From a virus: 38,584 bases of DNA. The notes under the pieces are model-generated. The model did not search any database and was not told the origin of the DNA. It was given only the letters and a program-made list of their open reading frames with translations. The DNA lies in the IMG/VR virus record IMGVR_UViG_3300025652_000198, positions 1 through 38,584 of that record. One strand, given 5' to 3'. The stretch's first letter is position 1. Each line of letters opens with the position of its first letter. Positions 559 to 26,106 of the stretch are shown one piece after another. The translations under genes and the position numbers were made by a program.

Positions 559-771
559 TACTATCGGGTTATAGATCAGATATATATCTATGGGTATTAA
601 TCGGGTTATTATTCAATCAATTCAATAGGTTATATGATTAGATATACATAAGGTTTAACTATGTATGGTCATATTAATGATGATTTAATCAATGATTACA
701 TAGGCTTAGATAACAAGAAATACGTTCAAGACTGAAACAGATACAGGAAACTGCATATGTCGGGCTTGGTC

Positions 772-794
772 TGTCTATCTTATGAGGGGTTAAG
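772..794 (-). promoter_or_regulatory. Phage RNA polymerase promoter, phi-OR-like
   Basis: On the minus strand this reads CTT, three variable bases, then CCCTCATAAGATAGACA. The 17-bp core is identical at 8351-8367 and 23602-23618. Aligned without gaps to the 23-bp T7 promoter it keeps CTCA at -9 to -6 and agrees at A-3, A-1, G+3, A+4 and A+6. It reads away from every recognised phage gene into the AT-rich region 420-760, the same position and direction as T7 phi-OR, which is tied to replication and concatemer processing at the late end. Confidence 0.8.
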
Positions 795-1096
795 CAGTTG
801 AACCCATGACTTGATCAGCTTGGACCTATGATTGAGACCGGATGAAAGGCCCAGCGAAAGGAAATAGATGCACCCACAAGCACAAGCATGCACGCCAGTT
901 GATCAACATCAGATAAACCAATGCATCACGCCACAAGGCATAGCACAGTGCAGCACAGGCTAACCCGTTATGGCTACCCGATGCTCTAACCTGTTGTAAT
1001 CAATGCAGCATGGCATACCAGCAAGGAATGCAACTAGCTATATAAGGATAAGACGCGGGCGCGTGCACCGGATTGAACCTGTTGTCAACACCTGAT

Positions 1097-1246
1097 TTAC
1101 CGAGGGGGTATAGGGGGGAATGCGCGGGTCGGAGGGTATAGATACCCCCACACAAAAATATGTCGGATTTTTACGTTTGCTCCTACACCGGGTACACCAC
1201 GAGGTAATACACGAGTTGAATGCAAAGGATTGAACGGTGTCAGCAC
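1097..1246 (-). CDS. Possible 49-aa protein, GTG start
   Basis: This small frame is listed because its signals are good rather than because its product is recognised. A textbook ribosome binding site, AAGGAGAT, lies just upstream of the GTG, and a strong sigma70-type promoter (1268-1296) lies directly before that. The product is rich in Pro, Gly and Arg with a short hydrophobic stretch (HIFVWGYLYPP). It matches no family I know. It is divergent from the regulator at 1335. The promoter could instead serve an untranslated RNA, and the frame could be chance. Confidence 0.25.
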   Translation of the reverse strand: MLTPFNPLHSTRVLPRGVPGVGANVKIRHIFVWGYLYPPTRAFPPIPPR

Positions 1247-1267
1247 GTCGATCTCCTTATCTCTACA

Positions 1268-1296
1268 ATTATGCAGACCCAATACTCACATCTCAA
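1268..1296 (-). promoter_or_regulatory. Sigma70-type promoter, minus strand
   Basis: On the minus strand TTGAGA (1291-1296) is followed by a 17-base spacer and CATAAT (1268-1273), each hexamer 5 of 6 to consensus. It would start near 1261 and read toward the 49-aa frame at 1246 and on into the left non-coding region. It lies back-to-back with the start of the plus-strand regulator, the usual geometry for an autoregulated divergent pair. Confidence 0.5.
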
Positions 1297-1334
1297 GTAT
1301 TGCACAACGCACAGTGTGGTACTAAGTGCCACCT

Positions 1335-1679
1335 ATGTTTGAAGCAATACACATACGAGGTATAAAGGCCCTACAGGACGCAGGAGTTACCCGACTGGAG
1401 CACGTAGTTCTCGCGTGTCTCGTCATGGATGACCGCCCGTGGTCGATCTCGTCGTTATCAGATGCCACAGGATACACCAGAGCAGCCATCAGGAACACGC
1501 TCAGGTGCGATAGATGGTCTCATATGACCCACAGGGACAGAAACGGGGGATACACCCTTAGAAGGGCTGCTAGGGCCTTTGCTGTAAAGGGCGCAGATGA
1601 GTTAATGGGGATACTGGATGGTAGTAGGTCTGGGTGGAGCACTGAAATCGCCAGTGCTCTACGCAAATCAACTAAATGA
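1335..1679 (+). CDS. Winged-helix/HTH transcriptional regulator
   Basis: This 114-residue basic protein is the only clear plus-strand gene. From the GTG at 1326 (117 residues), a winged-helix core spans about residues 24-88: a helix (LEHVVLACLVMDD), then a helix-turn-helix (SISSLSDATGYTRAAIRNTL), then a wing-like DRNGGYTL and an AARAF helix. This layout is seen in MarR-like and other small wHTH proteins. Neither the ATG at 1335 nor the GTG at 1326 has a clear Shine-Dalgarno; I prefer the ATG. It is divergent from a minus-strand promoter and followed by a strong terminator. In a phage with an integrase, a lone opposite-strand regulator is a good candidate for the lysogeny repressor, but this is inferred from position only. 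Confidence 0.7.
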   Translation: MFEAIHIRGIKALQDAGVTRLEHVVLACLVMDDRPWSISSLSDATGYTRAAIRNTLRCDRWSHMTHRDRNGGYTLRRAARAFAVKGADELMGILDGSRSGWSTEIASALRKSTK

Positions 1680-1707
1680 GTGGGTTTGTGTGTATATACT
1701 AAAGTTA

Positions 1708-1728
1708 GTGTTTCTAAATTGGAAACAC
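1708..1728. repeat. Inverted repeat GTGTTTC / GAAACAC
   Basis: A perfect 7-bp inverted repeat with a 7-base centre lies 29 bp after the stop of the regulator gene. It has no T-run, so it is not a classic terminator. It could be an operator or an RNA hairpin in the 3' untranslated region. Confidence 0.45.
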
Positions 1729-1779
1729 GTGCTATATGAGGATTGTCAGCCCGTCAGATTACTCTGGTGGACTAAGGAT

Positions 1780-1819
1780 ACCCCCGGTGATGCTCTCAGG
1801 CTCCCACCGGGGGTGTTTT
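1780..1819 (+). terminator. Rho-independent terminator between convergent genes
   Basis: ACCCCCGGTG pairs with CACCGGGGGT (1780-1789 with 1805-1814), a perfect 10-bp GC-rich stem, followed by GTTTTC. It ends the plus-strand regulator transcript. It lies two bases before the stop of the convergent holin gene, so on the minus strand it may also stop the late transcript, though the T-run on that side is poor. Confidence 0.8.
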
Positions 1820-1820
1820 C

Positions 1821-2231
1821 TTAGGATCGGGCTACACCCTTGATCTTCTCTGCGCTACGCATGGCACCTAAGCCGAGCATACCCAAGAGGATAGGACCTA
1901 GAGTGTCCCAGTCCAGTACAGGCAGACCGCCTAAGTCCACGTACTCACCTGTGAAGGCGCTGTAGTAGATAGCGGTGCTCTGGATGACAGGCATTGCAAT
2001 GAAGGATAGGACGAGTGCGGATACACATGTCCAACCTACAGCGGGTCGCCAACCTGAAACGAAGAGGCTCGTGTGTTGTGCCTCCTGCTTGTTGACTTCT
2101 AGCTGTGCGATCTCACCACGATGTGCGAGTTCCAAGAGTTTCAACTTGGCTGTAGCACGTTCTTCATCAGTGGTGAACATCTCGTCAATCAAGACTGTGA
2201 CGCCTTGTATGATAGCTGTTGTACTAGACAT
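1821..2231 (-). CDS. Holin, three-TM (GTA-type) family
   Basis: This 136-residue membrane protein would permeabilise the inner membrane and release the endolysin encoded just upstream. A helical N-terminus (residues 1-52) ends in NKQEAQHTSLFVSGWRPAVGW, the signature of the GTA-type three-TM holin family: the xSGWRPxxGW motif is at 59-67. Hydrophobic segments follow at about 64-90 and 110-124, ending in LGMLGLGAMRSAEKIKG, also typical of the family. The start at 2231 follows GGGAGAAC at good spacing. A longer upstream frame would overlap the endolysin by over 140 bases and lacks support. It overlaps the endolysin stop by 8 bases and is the last gene of the late operon. Confidence 0.85.
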   Translation of the reverse strand: MSSTTAIIQGVTVLIDEMFTTDEERATAKLKLLELAHRGEIAQLEVNKQEAQHTSLFVSGWRPAVGWTCVSALVLSFIAMPVIQSTAIYYSAFTGEYVDLGGLPVLDWDTLGPILLGMLGLGAMRSAEKIKGVARS

Positions 2232-2892
2232 AGAGTTCTCCCAGTGCGTTGAAGAAGTTAGCAGCTTGTGCTGCAACCATCGGGCCGTTCTTCTTGTGGT
2301 CACCATTGATGATCCGACGATCTGTGTTGTCGAAGGCGGGTGTGACCATACAGTCAGGGACCTCATCTAGGCTGAACTTAGTGAATACACCGTCGCGCAT
2401 ACCAATGAAGGCAATGGCGAGGGCGTGATCCCACTCAAGGGCCAAGTCCGGGTTCTTGTCGAGGGGTATACCCAAGATAGCCGCGAACTTCTTGTAGTTG
2501 GCGTACCAAGTGATCTGTACAAGCCCACGTCCATAGTAGGACTGCTTGTAGGGACCGTCGAGGTTGCTGTAGTTAGTGCGGATTATACCTTTGTTGAAGA
2601 TTGCTGTCACTGCGCGACGGGCTGACTGATCGGAATACGCAGGGCCGTATCTACGGGCACCTTCACGGATGGGCTGCATCCACTTAGCTGTTTCGTGATA
2701 GATAGTCGCCAGAACATAAGCGAGGTCTGGGCGAGAGTATCCATTGGCGAGGCCGTAGGCGATGATCTTATCCATGCCTTCGACTTGGTGCTGCTTGAGC
2801 CGCCCCCCAAATAGGGAACGGCGCACAGCGTCATAGAACGCTTTATTCAACTGCTGGGGCTTTCTCACCCGGAATTGCAGCCTTGGCTTCAA
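2224..2892 (-). CDS. Endolysin, glycoside hydrolase 19 (chitinase class I-like)
   Basis: Muralytic enzyme of about 222 residues that cleaves peptidoglycan glycan strands at the end of infection. The GH19 hallmarks are YHETAKW (residues 65-71, catalytic Glu67), a second acid in REGARRYG (Glu77), and YGRGLVQITWYANYKKF, the conserved substrate-groove motif. There is no signal peptide, so it relies on the holin encoded next. T7 uses an amidase (gp3.5) placed among its replication genes, whereas here lysis genes sit at the late end as in phiKMV. The start is uncertain: the ATG at 2892 overlaps the previous gene by 50 bases and has no clear Shine-Dalgarno; a GTG at 2868 is an alternative. Confidence 0.85.
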   Translation of the reverse strand: MKPRLQFRVRKPQQLNKAFYDAVRRSLFGGRLKQHQVEGMDKIIAYGLANGYSRPDLAYVLATIYHETAKWMQPIREGARRYGPAYSDQSARRAVTAIFNKGIIRTNYSNLDGPYKQSYYGRGLVQITWYANYKKFAAILGIPLDKNPDLALEWDHALAIAFIGMRDGVFTKFSLDEVPDCMVTPAFDNTDRRIINGDHKKNGPMVAAQAANFFNALGELYV

Positions 2893-3271
2893 CAGCCGCT
2901 TCTGCGCTTGCCAACAGAGCCTTGAGGCGGGTTACCTCAGCCTTCTGATCAGCGAGTGATCGGGCGTACTCAGCCTCTGTCCGGTTCTTGGACGCAGCAG
3001 CGGATTGCTCCATGTCTTTGATCTGATCTTCGATCTTCACGCGGGCGTGTTGGCCGAGGACCTTCAAGGTAGCAATGAAGATTTCCATTTTGGCGCTGTC
3101 GCCTTTGATCCGGCCTACGGCGCGAACACCTTCCTTGCGAAGCATGGAAGTGAAGCCATGTGGATCGCGGGGGAACTCAATGAGGCGCGGGTTGCTTACG
3201 GAACCTGAGATTTTGCGTTCAACGATAGCGTCAGCTTCGTTGACAGTGGTTGGTGCTTTAGTTTTAGCCAT
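2843..3271 (-). CDS. Unknown 142-aa protein with C-terminal coiled coil
   Basis: I do not recognise a family. Residues 1-75 are a mixed, basic, apparently folded region (LIEFPRDPHGFTSMLRKEG, then VRAVGRIKGDSAKMEIFI). Residues 78-132 are strongly helical with heptad-like Ala/Leu/Glu spacing, and an Ala/Pro tail follows. It has no signal peptide or TM segment, so it is not an obvious spanin. It begins after AAGGACAGGCCG, 11 bases from the terminase stop, and runs into the endolysin start. The position between terminase and lysis genes suggests a late role. Confidence 0.75.
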   Translation of the reverse strand: MAKTKAPTTVNEADAIVERKISGSVSNPRLIEFPRDPHGFTSMLRKEGVRAVGRIKGDSAKMEIFIATLKVLGQHARVKIEDQIKDMEQSAAASKNRTEAEYARSLADQKAEVTRLKALLASAEAAVEAKAAIPGEKAPAVE

Positions 3272-5774: not shown

Positions 5775-8333
5775 TTATGACACGGTGAGCGTTCCACCGT
5801 TTGCCATCGTGACTGTGTGTGTTGTACCGTCCGGCGACTTCATCACAATGGATGTGGCGTAAATCGCCGACACTGGGTTGGCGCTCCTACCGATAGTCTC
5901 GCCAGTACCTGATGGGTGTAGAACGCCGCTAGACTTCATTACCCAGCGGGTTGTTGTGCTACCGTCCACGTTTCGGAAAAGAGCATCGCCCGCTGACGTT
6001 ACCAGAATATCCAGCCCTCTTGCTGTGCCGGCATCCTTAATCTTCAATGTATTCGAATAAAACAGGCTTGCGTCTGTGTCTACTAAAACACCGCCACCAT
6101 CATGGTCCACACTTTTCACACCAAGGCTACTAGCGCCCGCCGCGTTAACAAGCCCGCCCTCAGTGATGAATACGTCATACGTAGTGTTACCGCTAGAAGT
6201 CGCGCTATTGCCGAAAATAACCTTGCCAGATACGCAATAAATGCCATTATCGGCGTTATCACTAACCGTGGCACCATCAGCCAGAACAAGCGCACCGTTT
6301 CTAACGTCGATACCTGCTCCTAAGTTGTTCTCTGATACGCCGTTTTGAAAGCCTATGCTGCCAAACCCGATACCATAAACGCCCTGTACGCCGTTACCTG
6401 CCGCGACGGAGTTATTTGCAAGTAAGTCGCCGCCTTCCTCGGTCTCATAGCCTGACTGCCCATTACCAATGGCAGACGATGCCTTAACGCCCATCGAACC
6501 GTTCCGTGTAGACTGGAACCCACGCCAACCATTTGCACATGCAGTGCATTGGAACCCGTAGAAGTTGCCACCGTGGTTTTGTATACCGTTGCCAAGCCAC
6601 TCCACAAGATGAAGGTTCTTAGCGTACAGCGCACCTGCGTTGATTTGCTGGCTTTCTGTTGAACCCGTATTAAGTTGGTCAGGCGCAGGTCCAATTTGCA
6701 TACCGTCTGAATAGCTATCCTCACCCGCCGTTGTTGCGCTATCAAACGACCCAGCAATGACTAGATTTTCCATAGCGCCAACGGTTGTCATAACAGCAAC
6801 CCCGCGCTGCGTATTAGGCCAGCGCAATGTTGACTTGATCGGAATTATTCTTGCTGCGGTCATTGTCATGGTTGGCCATGCTACAGCAAGCGCGTGTTTT
6901 ACAGTGACGTCATTTCCAGAAATAGCCGTAATCTTCCAACAACCCTCGGACGACCTTACGGCCCCAGTACCTACGGCATAACCGATGTATAGGTATTCCC
7001 CGACAACACACTCTGTCGCATCAGATAGCGTATAACGCACGCGATGATCTTTAGGCGTGTCCGTGGTGTTTACAACTGCTGTGGCTGTGACAGTTGTGGC
7101 GGCTGGTCCCTTGAGCGTTAGATTGTGCAGTTGCGCGTTTTCCAGTTGGACTTGCTGCGTGACTGCCGCTTCCCCTGACGGTAATTGTATTGTGGTTGCA
7201 GATTGCAGCAGTACGCGGTTCAGACCCTCAATAATGGCGGGCACTTGGGCCAATGTAGGCTCAAGCACTGTATTAGGTGGCACAGCTACGTTGCTGCCCG
7301 TAGACAGCGCAGCTACAAGAATAGAGGCATCGTTTGTTGATCCGTCGGAAGCGGAACCAAACGCACGTAGGTCGCCTAAAACAATGTTGAACTCTACGCC
7401 ACCTACGCCAGAATAGTCTAAGTCTCCACCAGACATAACGCGCTCGTACACCGCACCGATGCTTCGGACGATAACGTAGCCACCGGGGGTGACATCTGTG
7501 GGGGCAATACCTGCAAGCCCAGAGAACTCATCAACTTGTGGTCCATCGTATAGGGCCGCGTGGTCAGCACTTGTAGCCGCTGATGTGGCAGAGGCTCCGG
7601 CCCCAGCAGCTTGCGTGGTTGCTACACCTGCCTGTGTGGTCGCGGTGGATGCAGAAGCTGACGCACTTGTAGCAGCAGCCTGTGCAGTGGTACTCGCAGT
7701 GACAGCTAAGTCTTTTGCTACTACAGAAGCGTCCCGTGCCGCGATAGAGGCAGCAGAGTATTCTGCAACAGCAGTTACACTATTAGATGCAGAGGTAGCC
7801 GAGGTGGACGCGGCAGTTGCGGAGTTCGCAGCGGCCAGCGCAGAAGCAGTGGTATCCACGCGGTCGGCGGCTACCGCAACTCGGTCAGCGGCAGTGGAGA
7901 CAGCATCGGCAGTAGTAGCGGCGTTGAGGACCACCATCTCATCGCGTAGCGCGAGGATAGCATCGAGCAGCGCACCGGAGAAACTGTCAACACGACCATC
8001 CAGTAGTTCGTGAATGTTCATCATCAACTGTTTGAAGGCGCGGGTGAGTGTAACGCGGGTGATCGCACCAGTATTGTCTACACTGATCTCAAGATCGTTC
8101 TTGGATACAGTACGCTCAATGATTACTGTGCTACCCGCTGTGATGGGATCAGTAACCCGAATAGTCCCAGCATCTAGGAAGGTATAGCTTCTGAAAATTG
8201 TGTCCCCAAGACCGTCTACCTCACCCTGCACATAAACCTGTATGTCAGTGGTCTTTAAGAAACCGAGTGCAAAGTTGATTGGGAAGTCTTGGTCGCCCCC
8301 ATTATAGGGGTATTCAATACGGGAATATCCCAT
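5775..8333 (-). CDS. Tail fibre / receptor-binding protein (T7 gp17-like N-terminus)
   Basis: This 852-residue fibre should bind the host surface. Residues 1-113 are the T7 gp17-type tail-attachment domain (MGYSRIEYPYNGGDQDFPINF, then RVTLTRAFKQLMMNIHELLDGR). Residues about 115-265 are a long Ala/Ser/Thr-rich repeat likely to form a coiled-coil or collagen-like trimer shaft. The rest is rich in Asn, Gly, Ser and Val with beta-helix-like repeats (NADNGIYCVSGKVIFGN), consistent with a polysaccharide-binding or -degrading tip. The C-terminus (IYATSIVMKSPDGTTHTVTM) resembles short beta-rich fibre ends. I chose the ATG at 8333, which has CGGAGAAAACTC before it and lies downstream of the phage promoter; a longer frame from 8372 would overlap the promoter. 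It is larger than T7 gp17 (553). Confidence 0.9.
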   Translation of the reverse strand: MGYSRIEYPYNGGDQDFPINFALGFLKTTDIQVYVQGEVDGLGDTIFRSYTFLDAGTIRVTDPITAGSTVIIERTVSKNDLEISVDNTGAITRVTLTRAFKQLMMNIHELLDGRVDSFSGALLDAILALRDEMVVLNAATTADAVSTAADRVAVAADRVDTTASALAAANSATAASTSATSASNSVTAVAEYSAASIAARDASVVAKDLAVTASTTAQAAATSASASASTATTQAGVATTQAAGAGASATSAATSADHAALYDGPQVDEFSGLAGIAPTDVTPGGYVIVRSIGAVYERVMSGGDLDYSGVGGVEFNIVLGDLRAFGSASDGSTNDASILVAALSTGSNVAVPPNTVLEPTLAQVPAIIEGLNRVLLQSATTIQLPSGEAAVTQQVQLENAQLHNLTLKGPAATTVTATAVVNTTDTPKDHRVRYTLSDATECVVGEYLYIGYAVGTGAVRSSEGCWKITAISGNDVTVKHALAVAWPTMTMTAARIIPIKSTLRWPNTQRGVAVMTTVGAMENLVIAGSFDSATTAGEDSYSDGMQIGPAPDQLNTGSTESQQINAGALYAKNLHLVEWLGNGIQNHGGNFYGFQCTACANGWRGFQSTRNGSMGVKASSAIGNGQSGYETEEGGDLLANNSVAAGNGVQGVYGIGFGSIGFQNGVSENNLGAGIDVRNGALVLADGATVSDNADNGIYCVSGKVIFGNSATSSGNTTYDVFITEGGLVNAAGASSLGVKSVDHDGGGVLVDTDASLFYSNTLKIKDAGTARGLDILVTSAGDALFRNVDGSTTTRWVMKSSGVLHPSGTGETIGRSANPVSAIYATSIVMKSPDGTTHTVTMANGGTLTVS

Positions 8334-8350: not shown

Positions 8351-8373
8351 TGTCTATCTTATGAGGGGGCAAG
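8351..8373 (-). promoter_or_regulatory. Phage RNA polymerase promoter before the tail fibre
   Basis: The 17-bp core CCCTCATAAGATAGACA (minus strand, 8367-8351) is identical to the copies at 772 and 23602 and is preceded by CTT at the same spacing. By alignment with T7, transcription would start near 8356, giving a leader of about 20 bases before the tail fibre ATG. It should boost fibre, terminase and lysis genes late in infection, like the T7 class III promoters near gene 17. Confidence 0.85.
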
Positions 8374-8389
8374 CAAATTTGCCTGCCCC
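8366..8389 (-). other. Hairpin overlapping the upstream half of the promoter
   Basis: GGGGCAGGCA and TGCTTGCCCC (minus strand) form a 10-bp stem with one G-U pair around AATT, or a near-perfect 24-bp palindrome. No T-run follows. Its 3' arm shares bases with the promoter upstream part. It may attenuate or process the transcript arriving from the virion genes just ahead of the new start. Confidence 0.5.
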
Positions 8390-8398
8390 TTCAAAGGG

Positions 8399-18797: not shown

Positions 18798-19781
18798 TTA
18801 GACGTTGGCAGTGATGCCAGTTGCGCCTGCCTTGAAGACAGAACCGGATACGTCAGGGCGTTTGCCCGATACACCGAAGGCTGTATAGCTGTCGATGAAC
18901 CACTGCTTCTCTTCACGAGACCAGAACACGTCCGAAGTCAACGGAATGGTTTCACCAGCCAACAGGGACTTAGGGTGAATGACCGTTGCGACTGCCATAG
19001 CTTCGTCAGCAGATACGTCATAGGCGTTGCTGTTGTCTGCGTTGGACAAGAGGTGACCAGTGATGGCTGCGTTGACCATGCGGGCAGTTGGGAGCACGAG
19101 CGAACCCATGATACCTTTGAACTTACCTGCGGCGAAGTCGCCAGCAGCGGAGTAATCACCGTTGACCAGCTTGTCGTTGTTCAACAGGACTTCGTGTTGT
19201 GTTGGGCGAACCATGATCACACACTCGTCGGTGTCGATGTCCTCTTCCTGCATCTGTACGAGGATTTTGACGATCTCAGCATACAGCTTGTCAGGGTCCA
19301 TCTCGTCGTTTGCAGCAGTCAGCTTGGCAACTTTACCAGCACCGAAGGCACCGTTGAGGCCAGCAGGTGCAGCAAGCAAGGAGTTCTTGACGTTCTGGAT
19401 CAAGAAGGCTTGGTCGAAGAACTTTGCCTGTTCCTTACCGTGGTCTTGACCCAGTTCCATACGTGCGTTGAAGTCCGTTTGGAACTCATTCAGCATGGAA
19501 CGGTTGTCACGGGCCAGTACGACTGTATCGACTGTGACGCCGACACGACCGAATGCAGTAGGTGTCGCGTCTGGGCGGACGCCTGCTGTCAGGGCTTTCA
19601 GTGTGGTGCGACCAACACGACGTTCGATCAGGGTGTCAGTACCGCGTACTGGCTTGACCTTGAAGAACTTGCGCATGATGGACTTCTTGGCGAATTGGCT
19701 GTCAACTTCGCCGCCGTACTCTTCGATCATCTCTGATTTGGCTTGATCGGACAGGTGAGTGCTATCGGTTGGTAGTGGCAT
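18798..19781 (-). CDS. Major capsid protein (T7 gp10-like)
   Basis: A 327-residue shell protein (T7 10A has 345) with the HK97 fold expected of the family. The N-terminal arm holds GEVDSQFAKKSIMRKFFKVKP, followed by RGTDTLIERRVGRTTL. The centre has QTDFNARMELGQDHGKEQAKFFDQ and a domain with ILVQMQEEDIDTDECVIMVR and PTQHEVLLNNDKLVNGDYS. Position after scaffold, a strong AAGGAATAAAAG ribosome site and a terminator just behind all fit. I saw no slippery sequence and extension frame at its end like T7's 10B. Confidence 0.93.
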   Translation of the reverse strand: MPLPTDSTHLSDQAKSEMIEEYGGEVDSQFAKKSIMRKFFKVKPVRGTDTLIERRVGRTTLKALTAGVRPDATPTAFGRVGVTVDTVVLARDNRSMLNEFQTDFNARMELGQDHGKEQAKFFDQAFLIQNVKNSLLAAPAGLNGAFGAGKVAKLTAANDEMDPDKLYAEIVKILVQMQEEDIDTDECVIMVRPTQHEVLLNNDKLVNGDYSAAGDFAAGKFKGIMGSLVLPTARMVNAAITGHLLSNADNSNAYDVSADEAMAVATVIHPKSLLAGETIPLTSDVFWSREEKQWFIDSYTAFGVSGKRPDVSGSVFKAGATGITANV

Positions 19782-19791
19782 CTTTTATTCC

Positions 19792-20700
19792 TTAAATACC
19801 TTTGGCACGGCCACGGGCACGTGCATCTTTGATTGATTGGATGGCTGCTGGAGTTGCACCCGTGTCATGCGCAACTTTCATGCGCTCGACATACTGACCT
19901 CGTGTGAGGCTCTCTGTCTTAGGTGGGGCAACGCCATCTCCGATGATCTCGGTGGTGTCGGCGTTGAGGGTGGTGTTCTTAGCATCTCCATTGAAGCGGG
20001 CTGCTAGTTCAGATGCTGCAAAGCGTGCCTTGGCACCACCTGCGTCGATCATTTCGTTGTACTCAGCGGTCTCAGCCTCTGGCACGTTTGTCTTGGCCCA
20101 CGCTGTGATGACCGACCAGTTGTCTTCGCCACCCACTGTCTTGTGGACTTCTGCTACAATGGTCTTTGCCTTGTCAGCACTGCGGGTGATGAAGTCACGG
20201 GTGCCTGCCATGATGAGTGTGGCCTTAGCCTTACCCACTTTGGCTTCGAGTGCAGCAACGTCGATCTGGTTGATGTCACCAGCGCGGATAGCATCGAACA
20301 TCAGAGACTTTGCCTCGTCTGTGCTGATACCCGCATTCTGGATGAGTTCGAGTACGCTGTCGCCTACCTCGTCACCAGTGCTGCCCCATACTGAATTGTC
20401 CAGCGGCTTGTTCTCAGCTTCTGCATCTGCATCTGCTTTGTCCTTAGCGGCCTTCTCTTCGGCTTCTGTGGCTGCTGCTGCTTCCGCTTCTGCGGCCTCT
20501 GCTGCTGCCTCTTCTGGGGTTGGTGTTACTTCACCCGCCTCTAGTTTCGCCTGAGCCTCGGCTTCCGCCTTGTTCTTAGGTGCTTCCTTTGGGGCCGGGG
20601 CACCATTCCCATCAGTACCCTCGCTAAGGTCTGCCTCAGATGCGCCCTGAGCACGTGCTGCTTTGTTAGGGTCGGCCATAAAGTCTGGTTTGTCTGTCAT
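19792..20700 (-). CDS. Capsid scaffolding protein (T7 gp9-like)
   Basis: A 302-residue, very acidic, Ala/Glu-rich protein placed between portal and capsid, as T7 gp9 (307). Residues about 15-105 are low-complexity Ala/Glu/Lys and probably helical or disordered. The C-terminal half is folded (LELIQNAGISTDEAKSLMFD, KVGKAKATLIMAG) and ends in a basic helix (IQSIKDARARGRAKGI), the usual capsid-binding end of scaffolds. I chose the ATG at 20700, which has GGAGGGTAAT upstream; a longer frame from 20736 overlaps the preceding gene. Confidence 0.9.
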   Translation of the reverse strand: MTDKPDFMADPNKAARAQGASEADLSEGTDGNGAPAPKEAPKNKAEAEAQAKLEAGEVTPTPEEAAAEAAEAEAAAATEAEEKAAKDKADADAEAENKPLDNSVWGSTGDEVGDSVLELIQNAGISTDEAKSLMFDAIRAGDINQIDVAALEAKVGKAKATLIMAGTRDFITRSADKAKTIVAEVHKTVGGEDNWSVITAWAKTNVPEAETAEYNEMIDAGGAKARFAASELAARFNGDAKNTTLNADTTEIIGDGVAPPKTESLTRGQYVERMKVAHDTGATPAAIQSIKDARARGRAKGI

Positions 20701-20701
20701 A

Positions 20702-20851
20702 TTACCCTCCGTAGGCTGCTGCGAGAATTGCTTCAACTTCGGCTGTGGATTTGTCTTTCATCCACTCTTCACCGTTGTCCCGCATGTATTGTTGGAAGAA
20801 CTTGCGCTTTTCTTTTGTGCTAAGTTCTGACCATGGTTTCTTTTCTGCCAT
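20702..20851 (-). CDS. Unknown 49-aa helical protein between portal and scaffold
   Basis: This short, charged, helical product (MAEKKPWSELSTKEKRKFF, then AEVEAILAAAYGG) is not recognised. It has a good ribosome site, CAGGAGAGTAAT, begins one base after the portal stop and ends one base before the scaffold ATG, so it is clearly part of the head operon. A head-assembly accessory role is possible. A start at 20914 would run inside the portal gene and is unlikely. Confidence 0.75.
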   Translation of the reverse strand: MAEKKPWSELSTKEKRKFFQQYMRDNGEEWMKDKSTAEVEAILAAAYGG

Positions 20852-20852
20852 A

Positions 20853-22418
20853 TTACTCTCCTGTAAAGGCTGCTTTGCCTGCCTGCTCTTGCACGTTAGC
20901 GTTAGCCTGCGCATTCATTGATGCCTGCTCTTGCTGCTGTGCTGCTTGGTTGTTCTTTGCGATCTCATCTGGTGTGTATGAGAACTCCTTGAACTTCACC
21001 GCGTGGTTGGTGAACACAAAGCTGGCGAACTTGGATGGGTTGATAGTACCGCGCAGTTCTTCTGGAACCATGTCCATTAGTTGAAGGTCTGCGATGGCAC
21101 GGCGCACGTTGTCCAACTGCCCCTCACGGGATAGTGTTTCGAGACCTGTAGTAACGATCACCTCAAAGGTGGATAGGTTACCCGTAGTCTCAGTGCTAAA
21201 GTTGATTTGACTTACGGCATACTCAGCTTCACGCTGTTGCCACTCAAGGGCTAGACGGGAATACAGACCACCAAAGGCGCTCTCTAGTTCCATAGCAATG
21301 AACCGGATTTCTTCTGCTGTTACACGCTCGGCGTCACGGGTTGCAGAACTGTTCAACAGGAAGGCTTGCGCGAGTTCCCGCTCCAATGCTGCAACAAGTA
21401 CCCGCAGTGCTTCGATCTCAAGGCGACGTGCACCCTCTGGGGTGGAGATGTCATCCTTACGACCTTGGTGATAGCTACCACGTGGTGAGGCGTTCAGTTC
21501 TGCAACATCCAGCACGGAGCCGGGGTCAACAAGATACTTAACGTCTGCCATGATTGCTGCCATGTCTTGGATAGCACGGGAGTAAACGTCGATCTGGTGA
21601 AAGGCTGTTGCATGATCTTCAACGTGTCCACGACCGTAGTTGTCACCGCGAGACAGGTTCCACACCAGTGATAACACTGGGAGGTCCACTGGCTTGTAGC
21701 GAGTACCATGGTCGATGTCGATTTCATCAACGGCTTGCTTCATTGCCCACCGATGACCGTCCCACTTGTAATGGGTGTATAGGTCAACTGTGTCAGTCTC
21801 TTTGTAGTCGGGGTTAACCTGCAAAGCACGCTGCTTGAGTGTTGCATCAAGACCGGAGAAGAACTTACGATCCATCAAGATGATCTCAATGGGTTCGCCT
21901 TCAAGGTCACGACGGATGCAAAAGTCTTTCACACCATACACGATCCGCTTACCGGATTTCAGTCGGCGGATAAGGCAGTTACCTGTGATGATGAGGTGCT
22001 TGACTGCTTCCACTGCCCGTGGGCGGTAGGAGGTCAGGTTCAGCTTGCGTACTGCGGTCTCTTCCACAGATGCTGTCTCTTCCCGAACTGCATCAGCAAA
22101 CCCTGCTTCTGCATCCTTGCCCATCTCTTCGCGGAGTTTCTTGCGAACATCCGGTGTGAGTGTGATTGTGAAGAACGGTCGATCATGGGGGAACATTGTG
22201 TCCACCACTTTATTGGCGAGGTGGTTGACTAGGCGTGGACCGGAGGCCACATCGCCCTTCTCTTGTTCGACGCCTTCTGCGTTATCATGCGGACAAACAG
22301 CGGGGATGGTCCAACGACCGTATTCCTGACTGCGTGTTACAAGATCACCCTTCTCACCGTGCATGACACCCCATAGTTGGGCAAGTCCTGTCTCTGGATC
22401 AGTTGGTGTTGGGAACAT
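20853..22418 (-). CDS. Portal / head-tail connector (T7 gp8-like)
   Basis: A 521-residue protein (T7 gp8 has 536) forming the dodecameric ring at the capsid vertex through which DNA is pumped and ejected. The typical regions are an N-terminal RPFFTITLTPDVRKKL, the core DRKFFSGLDATLKQRALQ and VDLPVLSLVWNLSRGDNYGR, and the long helical FLLNSSATRDAERVTAEEIR, all family-like. The C-terminus is Gln/Ala-rich. Its ATG overlaps the stop of the preceding gene (TAATG), so it is translationally coupled. Confidence 0.93.
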   Translation of the reverse strand: MFPTPTDPETGLAQLWGVMHGEKGDLVTRSQEYGRWTIPAVCPHDNAEGVEQEKGDVASGPRLVNHLANKVVDTMFPHDRPFFTITLTPDVRKKLREEMGKDAEAGFADAVREETASVEETAVRKLNLTSYRPRAVEAVKHLIITGNCLIRRLKSGKRIVYGVKDFCIRRDLEGEPIEIILMDRKFFSGLDATLKQRALQVNPDYKETDTVDLYTHYKWDGHRWAMKQAVDEIDIDHGTRYKPVDLPVLSLVWNLSRGDNYGRGHVEDHATAFHQIDVYSRAIQDMAAIMADVKYLVDPGSVLDVAELNASPRGSYHQGRKDDISTPEGARRLEIEALRVLVAALERELAQAFLLNSSATRDAERVTAEEIRFIAMELESAFGGLYSRLALEWQQREAEYAVSQINFSTETTGNLSTFEVIVTTGLETLSREGQLDNVRRAIADLQLMDMVPEELRGTINPSKFASFVFTNHAVKFKEFSYTPDEIAKNNQAAQQQEQASMNAQANANVQEQAGKAAFTGE

Positions 22419-23154: not shown

Positions 23155-23432
23155 CAGCGGCGTGGGCTACTCATCTCCTTACGCGCTCGACGTTCCATAG
23201 CCACGATCTGGTCGGTTGTGTGGGTGTCTGCTGCACGTTCCACTGACTGTACGTCATTGGTTGGTCGGCCAGTCTCTTGTATAAGACGTTCACGCATATC
23301 TCGTTTTGCTTCCTCATACCCTGCTGTGAAGAGGGTTGAGTGCTCGGTCAGGCGCTTGGGATCAGTAAAGGCGAATAGGCGCTTTACACCAGCCTCACTG
23401 ATCGCTGGGTTGTTTAGGCTTGTCATTGTCAT
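23142..23432 (-). CDS. Unknown 96-aa late protein
   Basis: A helical, charged protein (FAFTDPKRLTEHSTLFTAGY, then EEAKRDMRERLIQETG) ending in a basic, Trp-rich tail (SSPRRWWSL). No family is recognised. It starts inside the preceding 60-aa gene with GGAGAAGACAACC upstream and overlaps the next gene, so the three small genes at the head of the late operon are coupled. A structural or host-takeover role are both open. Confidence 0.7.
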   Translation of the reverse strand: MTMTSLNNPAISEAGVKRLFAFTDPKRLTEHSTLFTAGYEEAKRDMRERLIQETGRPTNDVQSVERAADTHTTDQIVAMERRARKEMSSPRRWWSL

Positions 23433-23577
23433 TGGTTGTCTTCTCCGGGTTCTCTAACTCGTGCATGAGGTCAGGCCCAAGGATGGACCGGACTTCATCA
23501 GGTATGGAAAGACCCCTTCCGACAAACTCTGCGGTGAGAATAATTAAATCCGTAACCGCCATGTCGGAAAAGGTCAT
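23395..23577 (-). CDS. Unknown 60-aa protein, first gene after the late promoter
   Basis: A short acidic product with a hydrophobic N-terminal half (AVTDLIILTAEFVGRGLSIPDEVRSI) and a polar, disordered tail (ENPEKTTNDNDKPKQP). Its ATG has GGAGCACCCC upstream and lies about 25-30 bases from the predicted start of the phage promoter at 23602, so it is the first cistron of the late transcript. Not recognised. Confidence 0.7.
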   Translation of the reverse strand: MTFSDMAVTDLIILTAEFVGRGLSIPDEVRSILGPDLMHELENPEKTTNDNDKPKQPSDQ

Positions 23578-23601: not shown

Positions 23602-23624
23602 TGTCTATCTTATGAGGGACTAAG
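23602..23624 (-). promoter_or_regulatory. Phage RNA polymerase promoter for the late operon
   Basis: The minus strand reads CTT, three bases, CCCTCATAAGATAGACA, the core being identical to the sites at 772 and 8351. It is in the 51-base gap between the RNA polymerase stop and the next start, the expected place to switch structural genes to phage transcription. The core keeps the CTCA of the T7 promoter at -9 to -6. Confidence 0.87.
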
Positions 23625-23628
23625 GATT

Positions 23629-26106
23629 TCACCCAAAGAAATAAGGGCTTCTGAGAACATCCGTGATGTCAAGGTCTCCCCGTGCAGGAAGATCAGGTAG
23701 TTCTATGTCGTGACGTGTCTCATGTTCGTCCTTGAATGACTGGAGCACGTTTGTGTTCTGGTGGAGGTCAACAAAACACTCACGAATGATATGGTTCCAT
23801 TTGTCTGTGTCACATGCATGTACACCGAAGTCATCATGGATACAGGCAAAGCTGTCGATCCCTGCATCAACGCCCCTGTCTATGCACATAAGCATATGGG
23901 TTGCGTCGATACTGTGCACGAAGTTCGGGCTTGCCCCCTGCCGTTGTTTGCGGCTGTCCAGCTTGTCAGTCATGGAGGCGATACGCATTCGTAAACGACC
24001 ACCAATTTGGGTTTCAATCTGACGTGTCTTGTAGTGAAAGCTGGACTGATACATCGGGAAGTTCAGCGGGGTTGTGTAGTGCACTGGGTGCCCTGCCTTA
24101 GCCAACTGTGCAGCAGCTTGTTGCAACCAGTCCATAGCCTCACGTGCGGCGATCACCACCTCACTGATAGATGCCCATAGCTTAGGGCTAAGGTATAACG
24201 CATGGCGGAACTGTGTGTTCTTATCGAAGAAGTCCGGTGCGTTATCGGTGGACCACCGGAAGATTGTCTCCGTACACGCCTGCTGGGTGCTTCCATATGG
24301 CAGGGTCATCACTGGCTTCTTTGGTAACGCACGTTTCATGTGCTGCTCACCCCACACCTGCTCGAACAGGTCTAGCCAGTTGGTTGCTCCCGCATGTTCC
24401 TCACCACCCAGAGACCGTAACCCTTTCAGCTTACGTGTGCACACATCACCAACTTGCTGGTAGATGTCGGCAGGCTTGTCTGCTGGTGTTAGGTTGACTG
24501 CGGACCCTCCCACTCCATCCCGTAACATCGCGGAGAAGTGTTGGAGACCATTACAAGTCCCGTCGAGAGCAATGGGCAGATGCGAGACATACTTGTCTCC
24601 AATAACCACAGCGTCCGCATATTCCATGCAGAACGCAAGAAACTGGTAAGGCTTATCCGCGTCCGCCCAGACATGCTTGTGCTCAATAGGGTCATTAGCA
24701 ACAGCGATCCACGTGTCGTGCCGTTCTTCGACCCACTGAACTTGCTCATCGCGGGAACACTTATCGGTGCCCCATTTATTCGCACCGTGTACTTTGAGCC
24801 AGTATAGACCACGCGGCCCAAGCTGTTTACCCTCAGAGAATTGGAGCATAGCCTTGCCATGGTCCGTTCCCTGTGGTGATAGGCCGGAGGTTGCTGAGTA
24901 GACGCGCCCTCGGAAGTCACAGGTATAGACGTAGTAGAAATCATCATACTTCTCCATGTCCGTAGCCATACGCATGACACGGGACACCGCTAGGTTCTGG
25001 GATACCCTCTCCTTCTCCATTGAGTAGAACTCACGCGCTTCTGACTTCCAGTTAAGGAACGATGCATAGAGTTCGCTGTCTTCTGGGAGTTCAGATGGTT
25101 TGATGTGTTCGGGGATAGGAGATACGGGCATCTCGTATGGTTGGCTGCGGGGCATACCCACGCCTAAATTCTTGTGCCATACTTGCTGCATGACTTCTTT
25201 AACACGGGGGTTGATCTGCCAGCCTGTACGCTGCAATGCATTGATCGACTTCATCACCGTAGACAGGTCAGCCTCTGATAGGAGGCGGCTCTGCTTCTTG
25301 CCTGCCTTAGTTGAACGCACCTTAACTAGGGGCACCCGCTTACGCAGTTGTGGGCTGTAATACCCACCGTTGTTCCAACTGGTCCAATCATCCGGGGCAA
25401 TAATGCAGGGCATCGTGTCGGGGCTGATCAGTTCAGATAGTTCATTGTGGTTGTTCACCCAGTCCAAACACTCTTGTGATGGGGCTAGGTACACATCCGC
25501 TTGGCGACCCTTCTTGGTCGGGATACGGACAGTTTCAACGAGGTCACAGACTTCCATTAACAAGCTGACGATCAAGGCCCCTACACTGATCAAGGTCTCT
25601 TGTGTCCAAGGTTCCCATTCAACTCCGAGGGTGTTTGACTTGACAACCAAGACGCGGTGCTTGTGGCGGTAGTTCGTCGTACCCTTGCGTTCCCAAGAGC
25701 GGACGATCTCGTCGTAATATTCCTTGTGCTCTTCGTTGAACTTGCTGAACCGGAGTTCATCTTCAATGTGGCGTCCAATGGATGCACACACACTCTGCGC
25801 CTTCTGTGGGTTGTACAGTGTGTTGATGATCACCTTGAGTGAGAACAGGGCGACCTTATCGGTGTCTATGACGTTTAGGAGTTTAGCGTATTGGTTACGG
25901 CGACGACCATTTGGGTGCTTGCCTGCGAGGTAAGCACGGATGTGGTCTGATACCTGTAGGATGTATGAGCGTAGTAGGCGGGAGCCTGCACTTGTCTCGT
26001 CAGTGCGCCCGCCCTCTACTGCTCGGTCCTGTTGAACTCGGTATCTCTCGACGCCGTGATCAACCATACGCCCCTCCCACGCCAGTTGGTCGTGGATGTC
26101 GGGCAT
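23629..26106 (-). CDS. Single-subunit DNA-dependent RNA polymerase (T7 gp1-like)
   Basis: An 825-residue polymerase (T7 has 883) that transcribes the late genes from the CCCTCATAAGATAGACA promoters. Family motifs appear in order: CDFRGRVYSATSGLSPQG (396-413), LDGTCNGLQHFSAML with catalytic Asp515 (514-528), PKKPVMTLPYGST with the fingers Lys/Tyr (595-607), NFVHSIDATHM (728-738) and CIHDDFG with catalytic Asp758 (755-761). The C-terminus SPYFFG is a hydrophobic foot like T7's. The likely promoter-specificity loop lies at about 669-720. Unlike T7, the gene follows the replication genes. It starts after CAGGACACAAC. Confidence 0.97.
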   Translation of the reverse strand: MPDIHDQLAWEGRMVDHGVERYRVQQDRAVEGGRTDETSAGSRLLRSYILQVSDHIRAYLAGKHPNGRRRNQYAKLLNVIDTDKVALFSLKVIINTLYNPQKAQSVCASIGRHIEDELRFSKFNEEHKEYYDEIVRSWERKGTTNYRHKHRVLVVKSNTLGVEWEPWTQETLISVGALIVSLLMEVCDLVETVRIPTKKGRQADVYLAPSQECLDWVNNHNELSELISPDTMPCIIAPDDWTSWNNGGYYSPQLRKRVPLVKVRSTKAGKKQSRLLSEADLSTVMKSINALQRTGWQINPRVKEVMQQVWHKNLGVGMPRSQPYEMPVSPIPEHIKPSELPEDSELYASFLNWKSEAREFYSMEKERVSQNLAVSRVMRMATDMEKYDDFYYVYTCDFRGRVYSATSGLSPQGTDHGKAMLQFSEGKQLGPRGLYWLKVHGANKWGTDKCSRDEQVQWVEERHDTWIAVANDPIEHKHVWADADKPYQFLAFCMEYADAVVIGDKYVSHLPIALDGTCNGLQHFSAMLRDGVGGSAVNLTPADKPADIYQQVGDVCTRKLKGLRSLGGEEHAGATNWLDLFEQVWGEQHMKRALPKKPVMTLPYGSTQQACTETIFRWSTDNAPDFFDKNTQFRHALYLSPKLWASISEVVIAAREAMDWLQQAAAQLAKAGHPVHYTTPLNFPMYQSSFHYKTRQIETQIGGRLRMRIASMTDKLDSRKQRQGASPNFVHSIDATHMLMCIDRGVDAGIDSFACIHDDFGVHACDTDKWNHIIRECFVDLHQNTNVLQSFKDEHETRHDIELPDLPARGDLDITDVLRSPYFFG

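Follow-up and report, generated by a model that had tools for sequence, protein, structure and literature searches.

Three copies of a 23-bp element as probable promoters of the T7-type RNA polymerase of an IMG/VR podovirus

Divergent and orthogonal promoters of T7-like RNA polymerases (RNAPs) are already known from phage LUZ100 (PMC10134795), from Pseudomonas phages (PMC10138996) and from EM1 (PMC9596486). The bases at positions -12 to -10 are the main discriminators between the T7 and T3 promoters, and ATCTGTT is the class II pause and termination consensus of phage RNAPs (PMC11617373). For Rhizobium phage RHEph02, a promoter was predicted in 2024 (PMC11475235). In a screen that included the RHEph02 RNAP and its predicted promoter, only 8 of 26 predicted pairs were active, and activity was absent from all 16 pairs in which the DNA-binding domain has low similarity to that of T7 (PMC11475235). 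This low activity rate counts against reading the elements described here as promoters.

Here, we analysed a 38,584-base IMG/VR record, in the following called the window, of a T7-like podovirus with its main genes on the minus strand. A scan of the whole window located three exact copies of the 17-mer CTTnnnCCCTCATAAGATAGACA (= CCCTCATAAGATAGACA), at 772-788, 8351-8367 and 23602-23618, all on the minus strand. No further match with up to three mismatches was found in the window, and the plus strand carries no copy. In dinucleotide shuffles, 0.08 core matches are expected at up to three mismatches, and three were never reached. CTT precedes each 17-mer with a constant gap of three bases (CTTAAC, CTTGCC and CTTAGT), giving 23-bp units at 772-794, 8351-8373 and 23602-23624. 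The first-pass annotation had described the three exact minus-strand copies as well as the fixed CTT spacing, and both descriptions hold at all three sites. All copies are co-directional with the genes and lie in intergenic gaps. An Rfam search gave no match, and the 17-mer has no exact match in other IMG/VR contigs.

Promoter 1 (CTTAGTCCCTCATAAGATAGACA, 23602-23624, minus strand; predicted start A23606 or G23605) is assigned to the late, structural genes and is situated 4 bp past the stop codon of the gene for the 825-aa RNAP, the same place as in relatives. The first gene after it is a small ORF of 60 aa taken from the ORF list (23395-23577, minus strand). Promoter 2 (CTTGCCCCCTCATAAGATAGACA, 8351-8373, minus strand; predicted start A8355 or G8354), assigned to tail fibre, terminase and lysis, lies 17 bp ahead of the ATG of the tail fibre gene (5775-8333, minus strand), whose product has a T7 tail-fibre N-terminal domain; in relatives, too, the counterpart follows promoter 1 at a distance of about 15 kb. 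A GC-rich hairpin of 10 bp that lacks a U tract (8351-8393, z-score -3.9) ends inside promoter 2 and is possibly a terminator or RNA-stability element of the upstream operon. Promoter 3 (CTTAACCCCTCATAAGATAGACA, 772-794, minus strand; predicted start A776 or G775) lies at the genome end, where the DNA is non-coding, and has a phiOL-like position. With a length 6-7 kb below that of its relatives, the window seems to have been opened inside the early non-coding region, so that some of the early genes are probably absent from it.

The single-subunit RNAP (825 aa, 23629-26106, minus strand) was assigned by homology and matches T7 RNAP over its full length (E 5e-111). The catalytic residues D537, K631, Y639, H811 and D812 of T7 are conserved as D515, K596, Y604, H757 and D758. 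The specificity loop (residues 689-709, codons at 23980-24042, minus strand) places Q696, E698, R706 and R708 at the positions of T7 R746, N748, R756 and Q758, so that positions 746/748/756/758 read QERR in the window, RNRQ in T7, RDRQ in T3 and RRKS in SP6.

It had been argued in the first-pass annotation that the sites align without gaps to the T7 promoter. Such an alignment can be drawn, but it carries little weight as evidence: the ungapped match covers 9-11 of 23 positions, whereas 55 23-mers of the window reach at least 13, so that the likeness to the T7 consensus does not exceed the window background. The total match to the T3 promoter (12-13 of 23, with 64 window 23-mers reaching at least 13) likewise falls within the background, and the alignment register is uncertain. 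In the T7/T3 register, CCCTCA at -11 to -6 is nevertheless identical to the T3 promoter, and Glu698 occupies the T7 N748 position, which is Asp in T3; together, these two features make T3-like recognition conceivable. Of the earlier prediction that the polymerase probably ignores T7, T3 and SP6 promoters, the part concerning T7 and SP6 is thus plausible from the sequence, while the part concerning T3 is not safe.

The promoter reading rests on the elements of the relatives and not on the match to T7, which is no better than chance. An IMG/VR search with the RNAP as a single sequence gave no matches, and an alignment query was needed to find relatives. The related RNAPs in phage records are those of MedPE-SWcel-C56 (49% identity), ParMal1 (49%), ParKuw1 (47.5%) and Rhizobium and Agrobacterium phages (41-43%); relatives in IMG/VR reach 67%, and further ones occur in genomes. 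Most of them carry a promoter-like element shortly past the RNAP stop codon, and in most of the longer contigs this element recurs elsewhere with 0-3 mismatches, compared with about 4 for random segments. A search of the relatives for the motif of the window itself returned chance-level counts per genome, although a few of these weak matches were the relatives' own promoters; the informative route is through the repeats of each genome. As had been suggested as a check, most relatives possess a promoter-like element of their own beside the RNAP gene, and its sequence differs from phage to phage. In the gammaproteobacterial relatives with 36-40% identity (Vibrio 1.204.O, Alteromonas H4/4), no such element was found after the RNAP gene, which counts against the promoter reading.

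All alphaproteobacterial relatives examined whole have their own, different repeated element at three matching places, namely past the RNAP stop codon, before the tail fibre gene and at the genome end. This layout of three sites is common to the window, ParMal1, ParKuw1, L092 and L016 (with a tandem pair after the RNAP gene in L016), the tail-fibre site lying about 15 kb beyond the post-RNAP site and the end site another 6.9-11 kb further on. The same places together with extra copies are found in MedPE-SWcel-C56, RHEph02, Atu_ph03, Paso, TM34, SI01, Alfirin, NMeng1 and X3_9. In the 11 genomes scanned, every copy is on the coding strand and none on the other strand. The versions are phage-specific, for example TCCTCACTATTAGGATAA in RHEph02, TTATCCTTCGTATAAGGAA in Atu_ph03 and GGACCCTAATAGGAAA in Paso. 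Intermediate relatives possess the canonical CACTATAG core, and among them L036 (CTTAACGCTTCACTATAG / CTTAACGCTTCACTATAGAGG), with this textbook core, is at the sequence level the link between the divergent form of the window and known promoters.

A comparison of promoters and polymerases across phages gives moderate support for co-variation of the element with the specificity loop, which was the top-ranking RNAP block in two analyses. In a hand-picked promoter set of 37 phages, promoter distance has its strongest correlation with RNAP block 735-764 (r 0.50, against 0.31 for the median block), and for the loop, after controlling for the remainder of the RNAP, the partial correlation is 0.36 (p 0.0005). 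When segments after the RNAP gene were cut automatically from 57 phages, block 736-768, containing the loop, ranked first of 77. A peak at the specificity loop was seen for the promoter segment alone, the top block of the adjacent control segment being 170-204. However, the partial Mantel value in the automatic set is no stronger for the promoter segment (0.19) than for the control segment (0.21), and for this reason the support is considered moderate.

Several further observations concern the relatives themselves. The annotated RNAP of RHEph02 (L007) starts at 21619, while homology points to 21580, 13 codons earlier, where there is also an ATG that has a good ribosome binding site; truncation could account for a failure of activity tests made with the annotated protein. 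Over the RNAP gene, L016, a 60% relative from IMG/VR, is identical to a stretch of a 62-kb Pseudorhodobacter antarcticus contig (L101), so that such a phage may be present, perhaps as a prophage, in a cultured strain of the Rhodobacteraceae. Alteromonas phage H4/4 (L129, Autographiviridae) has two genes annotated as phage RNA polymerase, at 921-3047 and 19779-22169. 'Nostoc phage NMeng1' (L013, OQ540924) belongs to the Agrobacterium/Rhizobium group by its RNAP, promoters and end cassette, and its true host may be an associated alphaproteobacterium. Contigs of the phage group within metagenome-assembled genomes labelled Saprospiraceae, Desulfurococcales archaeon, Bdellovibrionales and Anaerolineales (L100, L104, L105, L109) are probably binning errors. 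In L024, L012, L013, L019, L075, L085 and others, a CCTCC stretch of the promoter can pair with the downstream ribosome binding site, so that a read-through transcript would hide this site and a promoter-started transcript would not. This pairing is suggestive in 8 of 35 relatives (0.05 or less in comparison with shuffles) but absent at the post-RNAP promoter of the window, and sequestration by such a hairpin was not retained as an explanation.

The three copies differ in role, which the first-pass annotation had missed: the end copy lies inside a predicted terminal-repeat border and is paired with a pause-type motif. The border element GTGGGTGC-ATCTAT (864-877, minus strand), the predicted right border of the direct terminal repeat with the boundary between 870 and 869, is identical over 14 nt to the terminal-repeat border that PhageTerm predicts for Rhizobium phage Paso, a match seen in 0 of 2000 shuffles. 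Promoter 3 sits about 75 bp inside this border. Past promoter 3 follows TATCTGTTTCAGTCT (729-743, minus strand), a predicted class II phage-RNAP pause or terminator signal that shares 14 of 15 bases with the T7 terminal-repeat border TATCTGTTACAGTCT. Its ATCTGTT (736-742), a T7-type class II motif on the coding strand, begins 29 nt past the 17-mer. On the minus strand, the order at the genome end is therefore border (877-864), promoter 3 (794-772), TATCTGTTTCAGTCT (743-729) and non-coding DNA. The last of these (1-771) is a possible origin region without a minus-strand ORF of at least 60 aa and with a GC content of 30% at 501-750; relatives have about 0.8-1.6 kb of non-coding DNA at the matching place.

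ATCTGTT is found at the terminal-repeat border in T7, T3, SP6 and Rhizobium phage Palo. The copy at 736-742 was itself considered as the border. This assignment was rejected, because Palo, ParMal1, ParKuw1 and Atu_ph03 have a separate ATCTGTT upstream of the promoter and the window has its Paso-type border at 864-877; the motif at 736-742 is accordingly read as a promoter-proximal signal. In 11 genomes, a pause-type motif lies within 60 nt past 20 of 52 promoters compared with 0.39 expected, where the degenerate motif was defined after viewing the genomes and ATCTGTT itself was known beforehand. The promoter-pause pair is present at the genome end in 15 of 15 genomes and at none of 14 tail-fibre promoters; Palo, L016, L092 and the later-fetched X3_9 agree with the pairing at the end. 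Rhizobial phages have a further pause-type motif, past the promoter next to the DNA polymerase gene. We tentatively propose for the alphaproteobacterial T7-like clade a common arrangement of a border (G-rich-ATCTRT), a promoter 20-145 bp further on, a TATCNGTY-type pause about 10-40 nt later and about 0.8-1.6 kb of non-coding DNA, in which an RNA of about 40 nt would prime replication or mark the end for the terminase, with a second pair beside the DNA polymerase gene in rhizobial phages. It is possible, though somewhat short of an even chance, that this start-stop cassette works as an origin or end-processing element. In the literature searched, which did not extend to most subscription journals, we found no description of such an end promoter-pause pair.

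Placing the sites in the exact T7/T3 register, with CCCTCA at -11 to -6, would put +1 on T18 of the 23-mer, as in the first-pass annotation. This register fits the T3 pattern through CCC at -11 to -9 and through the Glu at position 748. In most relatives a G stands at position 17-19 as counted from CTT, and in many of them at position 18. A pyrimidine start is, however, disfavoured by this enzyme family. In addition, the window and its two nearest relatives, L014 and L015, share the distance from CTT to GACA, which starts at position 20 in all three, while position 18 is C or A in L014 and L015. The exact register is therefore regarded as unlikely, and initiation at A19 or G20, 1-2 nt downstream of T18, appears likelier from this alignment.

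The repeats might instead be binding or processing sites of another phage factor involved in packaging, recombination, RNA processing or termination, in line with the strong GC hairpin overlapping the upstream part of the 8351 copy and the position of the 772 copy beside packaging-type signals at the genome end. However, the other two copies have no significant hairpin (z -0.25 and -1.8), copies keep to the coding strand, ahead of genes or the end region, with none on the opposite strand, the CACTATAG core is present in intermediate relatives, and divergence peaks at the RNAP specificity loop, which together make this explanation quite improbable. Host sigma-factor promoters repeated by the phage appear still more improbable, to the point of being nearly negligible. 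The early genes must be transcribed by the host and no host promoters were identified, but the 23-mer lacks a -35/-10 pattern, the single sigma-70-like match in 1-2000 lies elsewhere (1296-1268), with a count below chance expectation, and the element is wholly different between phages with related hosts. The 23-bp elements are thus very probably the promoter set of the window's own T7-type RNAP. The identification as phage promoters made in the first-pass annotation can be kept on the basis of the layout in relatives and the co-variation with the loop, but not on the similarity to T7 by which it had been argued.

With the elements read as promoters of the phage RNAP, the host RNAP would make the early, replication and RNAP transcripts, since no copy of the element is present upstream of the RNAP gene within the window. 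The phage RNAP would then use three starts: the one at 23602 would serve the structural operon and the one at 8351 tail fibre, terminase and lysis, while the one at 772 would lie just within the terminal repeat. Its specificity loop (Q696/E698/R706/R708) would read CCCTCA upstream, as T3 RNAP reads CCCTCA, and the initiating base would probably be A19 or G20. About 40 nt after initiation at the genome end, the polymerase would meet ATCTGTT, so that the end copy probably gives a short or paused transcript for replication priming or end processing and not an mRNA.

The claim of a new promoter specificity holds for the sequence, which is new given the lack of exact matches in other IMG/VR contigs; its kind, that of divergent T7-like RNAP promoters, is already known, and it is one of dozens of variants in a clade for which the RHEph02 promoter had already been predicted. 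The window adds one predicted RNAP-promoter pair with its own specificity, and the table of several dozen natural pairs across the clade can serve to calibrate the way in which promoter choice is encoded in the specificity loop. Furthermore, a class II pause signal consistently accompanies one class of these promoters, both at the genome end and, in phages of rhizobia, beside the DNA polymerase gene. The probable stop signal paired with the end promoter may mark where replication or packaging begins, and the coupling offers a testable handle on replication priming or genome-end marking by single-subunit phage RNAPs outside E. coli.

Compared with known systems, the Paracoccus phages ParMal1 and ParKuw1 and the IMG/VR phage L092 are alike in having exactly three copies at the three matching places together with the end cassette, and differ in promoter sequence (CTATCCCTCACATATAGACA, GAACCCACCATAGGACA and CCCTTCATCTAATGAA, respectively). 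The predicted RHEph02 promoter TTAATCCTCACTATTAGGATAA (PMC11475235) shares clade, positions and the kind of repeat of 20-24 bp, but has another sequence and six copies instead of three, and the RNAP of this Rhizobium phage is 44% identical to that of the window. Among T7, T3, SP6 and K11, the T3 promoter AATTAACCCTCACTAAAGGGAGA is the best match (12-13 of 23), having in common with the window CCCTCA at -11 to -6 in the ungapped register and, in the polymerase, an acidic residue at the position of T7 748. It differs from -5 to +3 (TAAGATAG in the window, CTAAAGGG in T3), and T3 RNAP is only 32% identical to the window RNAP, with differences at positions 746 and 758. In terms of position, promoter 1 resembles T7 phi1.1A and T3 phi1.05, which are found just after the RNAP gene, and promoter 3 resembles phiOL of T7 (405) and T3 (366-388). 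At the T7 concatemer junction, TATCTGTT lies at the terminal-repeat border and phiOL to the right of the terminal repeat, as does promoter 3. The T7 pause signal is situated at the border, before phiOL, whereas in the window the pause-type signal comes just after the end promoter.
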